Shown: positions 21,193 through 41,593 of the stretch, one piece after another | How positions within the stretch are numbered: the stretch's first letter is position 1 | How the letters are laid out: each line of letters opens with the position of its first letter | Assembly (NCBI RefSeq): GCF_009866525.1 | Contig: NZ_CM020866.1 | Coordinates: 1,145,504-1,209,503 of the forward strand | Origin: Spiroplasma poulsonii | GTDB lineage: Bacteria > Bacillota_I > Bacilli_A > Mycoplasmatales > Mycoplasmataceae | DNA length: 64,000 nt | Direction of reading: 5' to 3' | Position numbers and translations under genes: made by a program | The notes under the pieces: model-generated | Database searches by the model: none | What the model was told of the DNA's origin: nothing | Seen by the model: only the letters and a program-made list of their open reading frames with translations

Positions 21193-21252
21193 ATGGAAAG
21201 AAAACATTATTTTATTTTACGGTCCTTAGTAACTAAGTATGGAAAAGATAAT
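21193..21252 (+). pseudogene. Tiny ORF (KYGKDN family), truncated by an IS5 copy
   Basis: Twenty codons, ending SLVTKYGKDN, run directly into the IS5 end at 21253. They closely resemble the start of the intact 36-aa ORF at 23865-23975 (shared I-L-x-S-L-V-x-K-Y-G-K-D-N). The original 3' part is lost. The frame stays open into IS DNA for some 25 codons, which is incidental. Confidence 0.5.
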
Positions 21253-22319
21253 ATACTTCTTGCATTACTTGTTAAAAAATTGCAAATATTTGTAAAAAAG
21301 ATACTAATAGAAAAATATAATTTTAATTAATTATGTTTTTTATTTAAAAATTTAATATTTTTCCACAACGAAAAATTAATTTATTATTTAAATTATTTAA
21401 TTTTAAATAAATATTTTATGTTAAATATAATAATTGTAAATTATAAATTGAGGCAATTAAATTAAATCTTAAACCAAATCTTTTTCTTCGATTACGATAT
21501 TTTTCTGTAATAATTTTAAATTTTTTAAGAATAGCAAAAATATTTTCAATAATAATTCTCATTTTTGAAACTAGTCTATTATATTGCTTTTGTTCTTTGT
21601 TTAAAGGGTTTTTCTTTGTTTTCTTTGTAGGTATTAGAACATTATTGTGATTTTTTTGTATTCCTTGATAACCACTATCAACTATTAATTTGGTATTTTT
21701 TAAAATTGGGATTTTTGATTCTTTAAATAAAGCATAATCATGTTTTTTTCCGAGCGAAAAACTTGTTGCAATAATTTTTTTGGTTTCTTGTTCGATAATT
21801 ACTTGTGTTTTGATCGTGTGTTTTTTCTTTTTACCAGAATAAGATTGTTTTTGTCTTTTTTTGGGCGTTGGATTGGAGTTTCGGTAGCATCAATAATAAT
21901 AGTTTTATCATTAAAATAATCATTTATTAGTGCTTTTTTACCAGCAAGTTGTTGAAAATCAGAGTTTTTAATTAAAATATCTTCAATTCACTTAATATTA
22001 CGATAACAATTAGCCTCACTAATATCAAAACTTTTACCAAGATGAAAATAAGTCTGATATTCTCGTCAATATAATAAAGTCATCAATAATCTATTTTCTA
22101 ATGATAATTTATTAGTTTTACCACCTTTTTTAAATTTTTCTATTTCAGCAACTTTTAAAATATCTAACATTTTATTAAAAGTGGATTTTTTTATTCCTGT
22201 TAATCTTAACCATTCTCTATCATTAAGAGTATTAAATTTATTATTGTTCATATTTTTATGTCCTCATAAATTATATTTTATAATAATATTTTAATAAAAA
22301 AGGGTATCGCAAGAAGTCT
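21253..22319 (-). mobile_element. IS5-family element, copy 2 (inverted)
   Basis: 1067 bp, inserted with its transposase on the minus strand. The right-end inverted repeat (at 21253) has one change, ATACTTC for AGACTTC. The flanks are AAT on one side and ATT on the other, so they are not a matching target duplication, which suggests rearrangement through this copy. Confidence 0.88.
21416..22251 (-). CDS. IS5-family transposase, copy 2
   Basis: Same two-frame layout and slippery A-run as copy 1; both frames are open. Movement may be impaired by the altered terminal repeat. Confidence 0.8.
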
Positions 22320-22749
22320 ATTTAATTGAAGGACAAAATGATTTTATTTTTTTATCTAAGTTATTAAATAATAATACTGATGATTATGAAATTATACAAG
22401 CAGATGGCAAGTTTACAATGCCAATATATATTGAAATTTTTAAACAAATTAAAACACAAGATATAACTATTAATATAATGTTTGATAAAGATAATGGCAA
22501 AAGTACTATACATCAAAAATTTAATGAGTATATTATAAATAACGCTGATAAAGTTCTTGCTTTTAATAAAAATTTAGAATTTGATACTAAATTTACAACA
22601 AACACAAAAAGCGAAATACAAAATAAGTATAAATGTGTTGAATTTGCTGAACATATTGATAATAATGTTGATTTGGAACAATATAAGTTTTGTAAAGAAT
22701 AATAAATAATTACAAAAAATATTATTGTTTCTTTATTAAATAATTCATT
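22320..22749 (+). pseudogene. TOPRIM-domain protein fragment (OLD-like nuclease C-terminus)
   Basis: The frame enters from the IS5 boundary at 22320 without a start and ends at TAA 22700-22702. The first residues LIEGQNDFIFLSKLL fit strand 1 of a TOPRIM domain (the acidic E), and NIMFDKDNGKS gives the D-x-D-like motif. TOPRIM domains of this type occur at the C-terminus of OLD-family ATP-dependent nucleases, often phage defence proteins; that identity is inferred. The N-terminal ATPase part is absent from this window. Confidence 0.5.
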
Positions 22750-23816
22750 AGACTTCTTGCGATACCCTTTTTTATTAAAATATTATTATAAAATATAATT
22801 TATGAGGACATAAAAATATGAACAATAATAAATTTAATACTCTTAATGATAGAGAATGGTTAAGATTAACAGGAATAAAAAAATCCACTTTTAATAAAAT
22901 GTTAGATATTTTAAAAGTTGCTGAAATAGAAAAATTTAAAAAAGGTGGTAAAACTAATAAATTATCATTAGAAAATAGATTATTGATGACTTTATTATAT
23001 TGACGAGAATATCAGACTTATTTTCATCTTGGTAAAAGTTTTGATATTAGTGAGGCTAATTGTTATCGTAATATTAAGTGAATTGAAGATATTTTAATTA
23101 AAAACTCTGATTTTCAACAACTTGCTGGTAAAAAAGCACTAATAAATGATTATTTTAATGATAAAACTATTATTATTGATGCTACCGAAACTCCAATCCA
23201 ACGCCCAAAAAAAGACAAAAACAATCTTATTCTGGTAAAAAGAAAAAACAAACGATCAAAACACAAGTAATTATCGAACAAGAAACCAAAAAAATTATTG
23301 CAACAAGTTTTTCGCTCGGAAAAAAACATGATTATGCTTTATTTAAAGAATCAAAAATCCCAATTTTAAAAAATACCAAATTAATAGTTGATAGTGGTTA
23401 TCAAGGAATACAAAAAAATCACAATAATGTTCTAATACCTACAAAGAAAACAAAGAAAAATCCTTTAAACAAAGAACAAAAGCAATATAATAGAATAGTT
23501 TCAAAAATGAGAATTATTATTGAAAATATTTTTGCTATTCTTAAAAAATTTAAAATTATTACAGAAAAATATCGTAATCGAAGAAAAAGATTTGGTTTAA
23601 GATTTAATTTAATTGCCTCAATTTATAATTTACAATTATTATATTTAACATAAAATATTTATTTAAAATTAAATAATTTAAATAATAAATTAATTTTTCG
23701 TTGTGGAAAAATATTAAATTTTTAAATAAAAAACATAATTAATTAAAATTATATTTTTCTATTAGTATCTTTTTTACAAATATTTGCAATTTTTTAACAA
23801 GTAATGCAAGAAGTCT
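22750..23816 (+). mobile_element. IS5-family element, copy 3
   Basis: 1067 bp flanked by ATT on both sides (ANT-type target duplication). It has a few private substitutions relative to the other copies, for example near 23251 and 23494. Confidence 0.9.
22818..23653 (+). CDS. IS5-family transposase, copy 3
   Basis: Two overlapping frames joined at the slippery A-run as in copy 1, with no stop in either. Confidence 0.82.
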
Positions 23817-23819
23817 ATT

Positions 23820-29430: not shown

Positions 29431-29466
29431 CATAAAAAGTTAAAAGTATTATAACAAATTAAAAAT

Positions 29467-29528
29467 AAAATACAATAAAAAAGTAAAAAGTAGTATAAAA
29501 ACTATTTTTTACTTTTTTATTGTATTTT
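29467..29528. terminator. Long AT-rich inverted repeat, unit 1
   Basis: 28-nt arms match at 27 positions around a 6-nt spacer. It lies directly after the S1 gene on the minus strand. Confidence 0.65.
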
Positions 29529-29534
29529 ACTAAT

Positions 29535-30434: not shown

Positions 30435-31263
30435 TAATTATTAAAAACAAAAAAAATATGTAATTACTAATTTATGCAAAACACTAAAAGTTCCTAGATC
30501 AACGTTTTATTATCAATTGAAATCAAATAATCCTAAATCAAACCATACTATTGATAATGCTGTTATCAGTATTTTCTTAAAAAGTCGTAAAAATTATGGC
30601 ACAAGAAAAATTAAAGTTATGTTAGCACAACAAAATATTTTATTATCACGAATAAAAATTAGTAAAATAATGCAAAGATATAACTTAATTTCCAATTATA
30701 CAAAACTTAAATATAAACATCAAAGTAACAAAAACGCTACATACAAATATCATAATTTGTTAAATCAAGAATTTAATAATTATAAACTACATGAAGTTGT
30801 TGTCAGTGATTTAACACAAGTTGCTATCAATAGCAAATGATATTATGTGTGCTTTCTAATTGATTTATTTAATCGTGAAGTTATTGGTTATGATGTTAGT
30901 TCTCATAAAGATGCCAAATTAGTTGAAAATACTTTTAAAAAGCTTAGTTTTTCTTTAGATAATATTAAAATATTTCATACTGATCAAGGCAGCGAATTTA
31001 ATAACAATATCATTTACAATCTTTTAGCTAAAAACAATGTTGCAAAATCTTATAGTAAACCAGGCTGTCCTTATGATAATGCTGTTTCTGAATCAACCTA
31101 TAAAATTTTAAAAACAGAATTAATTAAAAACAGAAAATTTAAAAATATTGAACAATTTAAATTAGAATTATTTGACTATGTTAATTGATACAATAATGTA
31201 CGAATTCACAGCAAATTAAATTATTTAACACCAATTGAATATAAAAATCTTTACTCTACATAA
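30435..31263 (+). pseudogene. IS3 orfB, copy 2, 4-bp deletion
   Basis: The catalytic core is complete ([20 protein letters not shown]). A 4-bp deletion just after the orfA/orfB overlap puts it +1 instead of -1 to orfA, and the normal -1 frame meets TAA. The orfAB fusion cannot be made by the usual slip. Confidence 0.75.
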
Positions 31264-31292
31264 AATTTGTCCAAAAAACCCTTGCCATTCCA

Positions 31293-31521
31293 TTTGAAAA
31301 AGATTACTAAAAAAAGACCAAAAAAAGATAATATCAAAAATTACTAAAAAAATAAAAAGGATAATATCAACAACTGATGTAGAACTAAAATATATAAATT
31401 GTAAATTAAAACAAACAATAAAAAGATAAAACAAAATATTTGCCATAAATCAATTTACATATCAATAAGAAAACTTAATATTTTTTTGTTTTCTAAATAA
31501 ATTAAAATAATTTTTAAACAT
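31293..31521 (-). pseudogene. Zot-like phage assembly ATPase, N-terminal fragment (unit 1)
   Basis: The fragment starts at ATG 31521 after GGTGG and overlaps the preceding phage ORF closely. It encodes two membrane segments and then ends at the IS3 copy. The Walker A region seen in unit 2 has been deleted. In filamentous phages this gene (pI/Zot type) drives virion export; here it is dead. Confidence 0.65.
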
Positions 31522-31523
31522 AT

Positions 31524-31733
31524 TTACACCACCAAACTTATAGTTTTATATAAAATAAATATTGATAATCAAATTAAGAAAAACACCACTAATCAAACAC
31601 CTATCATAATCACTGAATAAGTAATATTATCAATAGAACTACCAACAAAGTTATCAATTTCAATTTTTGGAATAAAATAAAAAATCTGCAAAAGTCCTTG
31701 ATATACTCGTTGCAAAAAAGTGTTTCAGTCCAT
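31524..31733 (-). CDS. Small phage membrane protein, 69 aa (unit 1)
   Basis: It begins MDWNTFLQRVYQGLL, with Trp from TGA. The second half is a strong hydrophobic segment (YSVIMIGVWLVVFLIWLSIF). The start overlaps the upstream stop (TAATG), so it is translationally coupled. It is probably a minor coat or assembly protein of a filamentous phage, judged by position between coat and Zot-like genes. The unit 2 copy is frameshifted. Confidence 0.65.
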
Positions 31734-31891
31734 TATTTTATCCACCTAAAAATACAACTTAAAATTAAAAATAACATACCAAAAACAAGTATTAAAAACA
31801 CAACAAATATAACAATATCTAAAATAATAGGATGATTAATCCTAAAAATAATTGTCATAAATTCATAATATAAATCTCATACACTTTGCAT
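31733..31891 (-). CDS. Small phage membrane protein, 52 aa (unit 1)
   Basis: MQSVWDLYYEFM is followed by one hydrophobic segment (ILDIVIFVVFLILVFGMLF) and a short basic end. AAGGAATAAG lies upstream, and the stop overlaps the next ATG. It is typical of minor virion proteins of filamentous phages. The family was not identified. Confidence 0.6.
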
Positions 31892-31910
31892 TTTTCTTAT
31901 TCCTTTCCTA

Positions 31911-31940
31911 AATGTTAATTACTAAAATCAAGGTTAGAGT
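31911..31940. repeat. 30-bp inverted repeat, downstream arm (coat gene, unit 1)
   Basis: Exact reverse complement of 32212-32241. The two arms bracket the coat protein gene. Confidence 0.9.
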
Positions 31941-31952
31941 TTATCATAAATA

Positions 31953-32162
31953 CTAATATCCGTGAATTAACTTTCTGATTGTTTCAATTCCTAAAACCAC
32001 AAACATTAAAACTAACGGAATAATTAATAACATATGTGACCCTAAAAAACCGATAAATCAGTTTGTAAAAGCAATCGCCCAATCAGCAAGAATACCAGCA
32101 AAATCTGCTATTTGCTTAATAACACTTGCATCAGGGTTATCTGCTAATAAATTTACATTCAT
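31953..32162 (-). CDS. Probable plectrovirus major coat protein, 69 aa (unit 1)
   Basis: It has the filamentous major-coat layout: a short polar, acidic N-terminus (MNVNLLADNPDAS), an amphipathic part, a hydrophobic span (HMLLIIPLVLMFVVLGIE) and a basic C-terminus (IRKLIHGY). Size and position match coat protein of SpV1-like plectroviruses. It sits inside a 30-bp perfect inverted repeat and has GGAGTGAG upstream of ATG. Identical in both units. Named by architecture, not by alignment. Confidence 0.7.
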
Positions 32163-32211
32163 CTAAAACTCACTCCTTAAATACTAATAACTTATAATAA
32201 AACATTGCCGT

Positions 32212-32241
32212 ACTCTAACCTTGATTTTAGTAATTAACATT
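32212..32241. repeat. 30-bp inverted repeat, upstream arm (coat gene, unit 1)
   Basis: Partner of 31911-31940. It also lies within a hairpin-prone block: ATTTTAGT at 32224-32231 and ACTAAAAT at 32246-32253 can pair locally. Confidence 0.88.
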
Positions 32242-32292
32242 AAAAACTAAAATCAATTTTATACTTTGGCAATGTATTTAACTGATATTAAC

Positions 32293-32475
32293 TTATTCAA
32301 CAGATTTATCTGCTTTTTTAATTTTTCGTTTTCCCCATTCTTTAAATTCTACTTTTTTAGAACAATGCGGACAAACTAAATATTTATTTTTAAATTTAAA
32401 CACTGTGCTTACTGTTAAAAATATCAATAACATAAACATTGTAATAACTAAAATAATTGTTGCAAATACAGTCAT
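32293..32475 (-). CDS. Small membrane protein with zinc ribbon, 60 aa (unit 1)
   Basis: An N-terminal membrane segment (residues 4-27) is followed by CPHCSKKVEFKEWGK, one CxxC knuckle, and a basic tail. Its ATG overlaps the upstream stop by one base. Phage cassette member of unknown role. Confidence 0.6.
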   Translation of the reverse strand: MTVFATIILVITMFMLLIFLTVSTVFKFKNKYLVCPHCSKKVEFKEWGKRKIKKADKSVE

Positions 32476-32660
32476 TAATTACCACCACCTTTATTTTTTA
32501 ATTCTGAAATTTCTAACTTTAATTTCTCATTTTCAAGTTCTATTTTTTCAAGTTCTAATTTTGATTTTTTAATTTCTTTTTTATTAAAAACAGAAAAAAT
32601 GACATAAGCATATAATAAGATAACTAATAAAAATACAATAATCATTGAAAATATATCCAT
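32475..32660 (-). CDS. Small membrane/coiled-coil protein, 61 aa (unit 1)
   Basis: One membrane segment (IVFLLVILLYAYVIFSV) is followed by a charged heptad-like stretch (LELEKIELENEKLKLEISEL). Overlaps both neighbours by one base. In unit 2 the coil is five residues longer through a 15-bp repeat. Confidence 0.6.
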   Translation of the reverse strand: MDIFSMIIVFLLVILLYAYVIFSVFNKKEIKKSKLELEKIELENEKLKLEISELKNKGGGN

Positions 32661-32887
32661 TATTTTTCACTCTCACTTTCTATATTTAACATACAATTTT
32701 TTACTTGTTCTACTAATAATTTAAAATGTTGTTCTTCCATAACACTAATATCAATAATATTATGATTAAGATATAACTTAATTGCTTTTCTTAACATAAA
32801 TAAAGATATTTTTGCAGGTAAACATTGATGTATAACATTAACCAAATATTCTAATCGTTGTTTATATAACTTAGTTTGTTTTTTCAT
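32660..32887 (-). CDS. Hypothetical phage protein, 75 aa (unit 1)
   Basis: Start ATG at 32887 overlaps the stop of the 28-aa ORF. The protein is soluble, mixed charge, MKKQTKLYKQRLEYLV to NIESESEK. A longer upstream extension is open but unlikely, given the coupled start. Function unknown. Confidence 0.6.
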   Translation of the reverse strand: MKKQTKLYKQRLEYLVNVIHQCLPAKISLFMLRKAIKLYLNHNIIDISVMEEQHFKLLVEQVKNCMLNIESESEK

Positions 32888-37719: not shown

Positions 37720-37755
37720 CATAAAAAGTTAAAAGTATTATAACAAATTAAAAAT

Positions 37756-37817
37756 AAAATACAATAAAAAAGTAAAAAGTAGTATAAAAACTATTTTTTA
37801 CTTTTTTATTGTATTTT
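37756..37817. terminator. Long AT-rich inverted repeat, unit 2
   Basis: Copy of 29467-29528, after the S1 gene. Confidence 0.65.
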
Positions 37818-37823
37818 ACTAAT

Positions 37824-39629: not shown

Positions 39630-40458
39630 TAATTATTAAAAACAAAAAAAATATGTAATTACTAATTTATGCAAAACACTAAAAGTTCCTAGATCAACGT
39701 TTTATTATCAATTGAAATCAAATAATCCTAAATCAAACCATACTATTGATAATGCTGTTATCAGTATTTTCTTAAAAAGTCGTAAAAATTATGGCACAAG
39801 AAAAATTAAAGTTATGTTAGCACAACAAAATATTTTATTATCACGAATAAAAATTAGTAAAATAATGCAAAGATATAACTTAATTTCCAATTATACAAAA
39901 CTTAAATATAAACATCAAAGTAACAAAAACGCTACATACAAATATCATAATTTGTTAAATCAAGAATTTAATAATTATAAACTACATGAAGTTGTTGTCA
40001 GTGATTTAACACAAGTTGCTATCAATAGCAAATGATATTATGTGTGCTTTCTAATTGATTTATTTAATCGTGAAGTTATTGGTTATGATGTTAGTTCTCA
40101 TAAAGATGCCAAATTAGTTGAAAATACTTTTAAAAAGCTTAGTTTTTCTTTAGATAATATTAAAATATTTCATACTGATCAAGGCAGCGAATTTAATAAC
40201 AATATCATTTACAATCTTTTAGCTAAAAACAATGTTGCAAAATCTTATAGTAAACCAGGCTGTTCTTATGATAATGCTGTTTCTGAATCAACCTATAAAA
40301 TTTTAAAAACAGAATTAATTAAAAACAGAAAATTTAAAAATATTGAACAATTTAAATTAGAATTATTTGACTATGTTAATTGATACAATAATGTACGAAT
40401 TCACAGCAAATTAAATTATTTAACACCAATTGAATATAAAAATCTTTACTCTACATAA
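39630..40458 (+). pseudogene. IS3 orfB, copy 3, 4-bp deletion
   Basis: Same deletion as copy 2. One extra change near the catalytic Glu (GCSYDN for GCPYDN). Confidence 0.75.
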
Positions 40459-40487
40459 AATTTGTCCAAAAAACCCTTGCCATTCCA

Positions 40488-40872
40488 CTCCAATTTTTTC
40501 ATCATTAATAAAATAATTAGAATAAACATTGTCAAACTTAGCAATTTGCGATAAATAAGTCATTAATAAAGTTTTACCAGTACCCAAAGCACCGTTAATG
40601 ATTGATATTGGATTACTTTTAATAATTTTAATCAATTTTCGTGTTTGAAAAAGATTACTAAAAAAAGACCAAAAAAAGATAATATCAAAAATTACTAAAA
40701 AAATAAAAAGGATAATATCAACAACTGATGTAGAACTAAAATATATAAATTGTAAATTAAAACAAACAATAAAAAGATAAAACAAAATATTTGCCATAAA
40801 TCAATTTACATATCAATAAGAAAACTTAATATTTTTTTGTTTTCTAAATAAATTAAAATAATTTTTAAACAT
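40488..40872 (-). pseudogene. Zot-like phage assembly ATPase, truncated (unit 2)
   Basis: From ATG 40872 it reads two membrane segments and then SIINGALGTGKTLLMTYL, a clear Walker A motif, and stops at the right end of IS3 copy 3. The frame runs on about 20 codons into the IS. Filamentous-phage pI/Zot-type ATPases power virion assembly and export. The remainder of the ATPase domain is missing, so it should be inactive. Confidence 0.7.
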
Positions 40873-41262: not shown

Positions 41263-41292
41263 AATGTTAATTACTAAAATCAAGGTTAGAGT
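41263..41292. repeat. 30-bp inverted repeat, downstream arm (coat gene, unit 2)
   Basis: Pairs with 41564-41593, here with one mismatch. Confidence 0.88.
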
Positions 41293-41304
41293 TTATCATA
41301 AATA

Positions 41305-41514
41305 CTAATATCCGTGAATTAACTTTCTGATTGTTTCAATTCCTAAAACCACAAACATTAAAACTAACGGAATAATTAATAACATATGTGACCCTAAAAA
41401 ACCGATAAATCAGTTTGTAAAAGCAATCGCCCAATCAGCAAGAATACCAGCAAAATCTGCTATTTGCTTAATAACACTTGCATCAGGGTTATCTGCTAAT
41501 AAATTTACATTCAT
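41305..41514 (-). CDS. Probable plectrovirus major coat protein, 69 aa (unit 2)
   Basis: Same protein as 31953-32162; polar N-terminus, one hydrophobic span, basic end. Confidence 0.7.
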
Positions 41515-41563: not shown

Positions 41564-41593
41564 ACTCTAACATTGATTTTAGTAATTAACATT
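41564..41593. repeat. 30-bp inverted repeat, upstream arm (coat gene, unit 2)
   Basis: One substitution (CATTG for CCTTG) compared with unit 1 breaks one pair of the inverted repeat. Confidence 0.88.

Follow-up and report, generated by a model that had tools for sequence, protein, structure and literature searches.

A conserved long-range stem around the presumed coat gene of SVTS2-like plectroviruses may set the coat cistron apart in the phage message

The window analysed here is a 64,000-nucleotide stretch of the Spiroplasma poulsonii chromosome (G000:C1:1145504-1209503) that holds two SVTS2-like plectrovirus fragments, units 1 and 2, both coding on the minus strand. Around the coat gene the DNA is 89.5% identical to phage SVTS2 over 1201 bases and the genes run in the order ORF17-12-coat-13-10, so that DNA and gene order both identify an SVTS2-like (Suturavirus) prophage of the Plectroviridae. 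An earlier note on this DNA had described an exact 30-bp inverted repeat surrounding the coat ORF with its ribosome site and nothing else, with 29 of 30 pairs kept in unit 2, and we find the same at the same coordinates. The arms of unit 1 are exact reverse complements (30/30 complementary), separated by a gap of 271 nt that contains only a 69-aa presumed coat ORF and its AAGGAG ribosome site; the sole exception in unit 2 (29/30 pairs) is a T opposite C. The features of the two units, in the direction of coding, are as follows.

32293-32475, minus strand: preceding gene, SVTS2 ORF12 homologue
32212-32241, minus strand: upstream arm of unit 1, AATGTTAATTACTAAAATCAAGGTTAGAGT on the coding strand, ending 49 nt before the coat ATG and kept in relatives
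32173-32178, minus strand: sequence-predicted ribosome-binding site AAGGAG of the coat ORF, within the loop
31953-32162, minus strand: presumed major coat protein ORF of unit 1, 69 aa, SVTS2 ORF7 homologue
31941-31952, minus strand: spacer from stop codon to downstream arm, predicted to lengthen the stem by pairing with the leader segment on the inner side of the upstream arm
31911-31940, minus strand: downstream arm of unit 1, ACTCTAACCTTGATTTTAGTAATTAACATT, starting 12 nt past the coat stop codon and kept in relatives
31902-31909, minus strand: sequence-predicted ribosome-binding site of the next gene (ORF13), AGGAAAGG, just beyond the downstream arm and directly outside the stem
31733-31891, minus strand: next gene, SVTS2 ORF13 homologue, 52 aa, transmembrane
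41564-41593, minus strand: upstream arm of unit 2, with one G->T change that places T opposite C in the long stem
41305-41514, minus strand: presumed coat ORF of unit 2
41263-41292, minus strand: downstream arm of unit 2

The enclosed ORF is about 89-90% identical to SVTS2 ORF7, has no match in Pfam and belongs to PHROGs family phrog_29787, which is listed as being of unknown function. Its size, its charge pattern (an acidic N-terminal part and a basic C-terminus) and its membrane helix suggest a major coat protein of the inovirus type; the ICTV profile gives the major coat label in SVTS2 to a different gene, g13 (PMC8295915).

Arms like these are not expected by chance. Shuffles of the window put the expected number of arm copies at 0, and pairing scores in the eight copies tested were 25-30, against a shuffle maximum of 14-19. 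Apart from one pair of IS copies, the window contains no other inverted repeats of such length with a gap of 150-700 nt.

We then compared copies of the coat gene from the window's own Spiroplasma genome, five other genomes of the same genus or family, phages SVTS2 and SVGII3, IMG/VR contigs and the Spiroplasma citri plasmid-like element pScpC5-3; in a homologue search of the wider order, matches outside the family were all weak (E above 0.001). Every intact copy found has arms of 25-30 bp at fixed positions (arm end to ATG, 32-51 nt; stop codon to arm, 3-14 nt; loop, 236-281 nt), whether of the Suturavirus/SVTS2 type, the Virgulavirus/SVGII3 type or further prophage lineages. The large stem proposed in the earlier note, which had also suggested looking for the arms in related plectroviruses, is thus borne out by pairing that is conserved across all of these groups. 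The arms themselves fall into four sequence families, in each of which the two arms pair with one another: the SVTS2 type (AATGTTAATTACTAAAATCAAGGTTAGAGT), the SVGII3 type (TACTTTTTAACTTTTTAGGGGTTAAAAA; genomes G018 and G017 have near variants), that of genome G040 (GTAATAACCCTATATGACTAGTTAATT) and a fourth found in G018 and an IMG/VR contig (GTAATACCTTTTTTAGTAGGTAAGA). In each scanned phage or prophage stretch with this coat type, no inverted repeat within 450 nt is longer than the coat-flanking stem, and the extension of the stem inside the arms exists in perfect versions of 11 bp in SVTS2 and 14 bp in pScpC5-3. Among damaged copies, one locus (L034) retains both arms and two (L039 and L051) retain the downstream arm only. 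The coat-enclosing stem could serve as a marker for locating this gene in poorly annotated Spiroplasma phages.

Two observations on the relatives can be added. The plectrovirus lineages in G040, G018 and G017 (L016, L027, L102, L103 and neighbours) have coats about 54-58% identical to the window's, and G040 represents another genus of the family. The element pScpC5-3 (L098, NZ_CP053307), filed as an S. citri plasmid, carries an SVTS2-like block with coat, ORF13 and ORF10 homologues; it may represent either the replicative form of a phage or an element derived from one.

The pattern of variation within the arms indicates selection on pairing. Across 16 distinct copies of the SVTS2 group, 99.4% of cells are paired, compared with 27-50% when the partners are slid. 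Four pairs vary, each between Watson-Crick and G.U on the coding strand (G.U occurs in 10 and 8 of 16 rows). No A.C, a combination able to pair on the opposite strand alone, occurs among these four pairs in the 16 copies; beyond these, the cells that depart from pairing are the T.C of unit 2 and, in two copies, an A-A at the end of the stem. The long stem shows no double-sided changes among these 16 copies, so a shuffle control is uninformative for it, whereas in the six copies of the SVGII3 group all cells are paired and two pairs have changed on both sides with none broken. Site variation is 0.10 and 0.07 in the arms versus 0.47 in the spacer to the ATG, with some other nearby stretches as conserved as the arm sites. 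Coming from few independent changes, the wobble bias is suggestive and not strong by itself; taken with the conserved pairing and the covariation, it indicates selection on pairing of the coding strand, and the retention of pairing despite changed letters speaks for a working RNA structure by which the coat gene stands apart in the message.

Folding predictions agree with this picture and add a second structure. For the coding strand, minimum-energy prediction gives the long stem in eight copies, with a mean pair probability of 0.93-0.99; the predicted fold has z = -7.8 on that strand and z = -6.0 on the opposite strand, as any inverted repeat folds well. A local hairpin is also predicted at the upstream arm, formed in unit 1 by four legs.

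32268-32275, minus strand: 5' outer leg, ACATTGCC, of the hairpin, an alternative to the long stem that co-varies in 16 relatives
32246-32256, minus strand: 5' inner leg, TTGATTTTAGT, whose partner is part of the upstream arm
32221-32231, minus strand: 3' inner leg, ACTAAAATCAA, falling inside the upstream arm
32202-32209, minus strand: 3' outer leg, GGCAATGT, with more T after it (four T in all)

Because the 3' inner leg lies in the upstream arm, the local hairpin and the long stem are mutually exclusive. In the SVTS2 group the hairpin has 19 pairs, 100% paired among 16 relatives, three of them changed on both sides, and the G->T change in the upstream arm of unit 2 gives it one extra pair. 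A hairpin with its 3' leg in the upstream arm is present in all five lineages examined. In three of them, the SVGII3, G018b and G018c types, a U-run comes after the hairpin, which is by its sequence terminator-like there; the SVTS2 group has a weak U-run and G040 has none.

The earlier note had offered a pair of terminators, or ends that stabilise the mRNA, as possible roles of the arms. A plain terminator pair finds no support: a lone arm is not a hairpin, no T-run lies past the downstream arm, and in place of a G+C-rich hairpin with a T-run at each end there is a hairpin at the upstream arm only. A simple promoter and terminator scan gave nothing above chance and no terminator in 31850-32700. 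A stem that defines or stabilises the mRNA, by contrast, appears to be the likeliest of the options that had been offered.

The interpretation that we favor, with about even confidence, is that a long-range mRNA stem sets off the coat cistron, likely for RNase III-type processing and/or protection from decay. Gene order and orientation permit both arms in one transcript, and such a multi-gene transcript would run from ORF12 through coat and ORF13 to ORF10. The local hairpin at the upstream arm would be the first structure to form; once the coat cistron had been transcribed, the downstream arm would pair with the upstream arm over 25-30 bp, displacing the hairpin and closing a loop of about 240-280 nt with the coat ORF and its ribosome site alone. 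The stem would then mark the coat cistron for cutting out and/or shield it from decay, and the coat message could become more abundant or longer-lived than those of its neighbors.

We consider cutting out or protection the likeliest outcome because the stem is similar in size to the RNase III-cleaved stems that enclose 16S and 23S rRNA. The arms provide what is seen in such processing stems, a long double-stranded stem (25-30 bp, the main predicted fold) around one product, and RNase III is encoded in 6/6 host genomes (TIGR02191 above cut-off). The window's host has stems of 22 and 31 bp around its own 16S and 23S rRNA, and in E. coli RNase III binds such rRNA duplexes and cuts between cistrons (PMC8708148). 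Bacterial rRNA processing stems resemble the one described here in being long-range stems of 20-30 bp, within a longer transcript, whose loop holds exactly one product; they differ in that here the message is a phage's, what is enclosed codes for protein (a cistron of about 240-280 nt) and the cleavage is putative. More tentatively, the stem might belong to a type of element in phage mRNAs: a protein-coding cistron would lie within a perfect, rRNA-like stem by which it is cut out or protected, and the stem would alternate with a hairpin upstream, so that the coat message meets a fate of its own. Little is known of gene regulation in plectroviruses. Enclosing one cistron in a conserved stem that covaries would let a single gene within a multi-gene message have its own abundance by simple means.

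Selective processing of a coat message has a parallel in the filamentous phages f1 and M13, where the mRNA of the major coat gene VIII is processed by RNase E cuts together with a terminator. There, as would be the case here, the coat message exceeds those of its neighbors, but no stem surrounds the cistron.

The main rival to an mRNA stem is a role in the single-stranded phage DNA, since the packaged strand shares the sense of the message. The stem might be a packaging signal, a start site for the complementary strand or a determinant of genome shape in the rod, and enclose the coat gene incidentally. Because the coding strand is the packaged strand too, the wobble bias does not tell a stem in RNA from one in single-stranded DNA, and the covariation fits both molecules equally; the standing of the stem as the longest inverted repeat in each scanned stretch is also what a DNA signal might produce. 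We nonetheless think a DNA role fairly unlikely. In every lineage the arms fit closely between one stop codon and the ribosome site that follows, enclosing exactly one cistron with its own ribosome site, a placement for which a DNA signal has no need. With one cistron and its ribosome site inside and the next site outside, the stem fits a role in a message more readily than one as a DNA signal. The packaging hairpins of inoviruses, moreover, have short loops.

A different RNA-based mechanism would make the two structures a two-state switch, in which the upstream hairpin acts as an attenuator and the downstream arm, perhaps in trans from another coat transcript, opens it so that transcription enters the coat gene. 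The overlap of the upstream arm with a local hairpin in 5/5 lineages, the U-run in three types and the covariation of the SVTS2-group hairpin are all consistent with such a switch. In cis, however, the downstream arm is made only after the termination decision, and the weak or missing U-run in the SVTS2 group and G040, along with the empty terminator scan, leaves us regarding the switch as unlikely.

It is more doubtful still that the arms are functionless and owe their continued identity to recombination or template switching from one inverted repeat to the other. Arms are perfect in four families, and the double changes in the SVGII3 group could be copies from arm to arm, but the G.U mismatches of the SVTS2 group persist and are always of the type that pairs on the coding strand. 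The local hairpin, whose arrangement is different, co-varies too, and paired arms are kept both in G017, where recA is absent, and in G015, where it is truncated.

There is very little to recommend the idea that the arms mark the ends of a small mobile or modular cassette as its terminal inverted repeats. SpV1-type relatives do have inverted repeats of 28-31 bp, A/A' and B/B', with interiors of differing length, yet around the coat gene the gene order is constant, and across 14 genomes arms of the SVTS2 and SVGII3 types occur at coat loci only, the exceptions being one lone single arm in G017 and one copy that has lost its upstream part. Inversion of the coat gene, which the earlier note had thought the arms might allow and which perfect inverted repeats could permit, is close to negligible as an explanation, since the gene has a single orientation relative to its neighbors in all loci found with flanking genes and the G.U mismatches between the arms persist.

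Returning to the SpV1-type repeats, those of SpV1-R8A2B (GenBank X51344 / NC_001365) are annotated in a plectrovirus and have arms of 28-31 bp standing 196-256 nt apart, like the coat stem; unlike it, they lie downstream of the coat-like ORF7, which they do not enclose, and one of them encloses ORF8 with arms that overlap the ends of ORF8. Their interior lengths vary among prophages: inverted repeats of 28-31 bp in SpV1-type prophage cassettes (L007 5493-5810 and 5832-6083; L104, L106, L119, L122, L133) have interiors of about 94-264 nt, like small modular elements. We therefore rejected these intergenic cassettes, with their varying interiors and without ORF7 inside, as the same element. We likewise rejected an equivalent stem around the SpV1-type ORF7, where the best scores of 12-15 are within the shuffle range from other loci, and no such stem was found in MV-L1. 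As the stem is missing from SpV1-type coat genes and was not seen in MV-L1, its function is either dispensable or met otherwise there.

The earlier note knew of no description of the arms. Our literature search likewise found none for coat-enclosing arms, an earlier mention in the SpV1-R8A2B and SVTS2 sequence papers being possible, but the annotation of A/A' and B/B' in the SpV1-R8A2B record makes the novelty narrower than first claimed: inverted repeats in plectroviruses are already on record, though around other sequences. In the SVTS2 and SVGII3 genome records ORF7 is likewise flanked, by these arms or by arms unrelated in sequence, and neither record annotates them; the stem-loops annotated for SVTS2 are a different one, within ORF7, and one at 2190-2265.

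Several further features of the window and its genome were noted in passing. The gene after ORF10 (SVTS2 ORF2) is shortened in both units (31225-31521 and 40420-40872), and an IS-type transposase ORF (30517-31263 and 39712-40458) adjoins the shortened homologue in each. The genome's recA (G000:C1:917865-918814) matches as two overlapping pieces, as if frame-shifted. Hairpins of 29 bp with a 6-nt loop, 97% paired, lie at 29466-29529 and 37755-37818 and adjoin two copies of a 117-aa ORF resembling an S1 RNA-binding domain. A 1071-bp inverted repeat (21250-22320 / 22749-23819) carries a 150-aa IS ORF (MNNNKFNTLNDREW...) in each arm and a 94-aa ORF between them.
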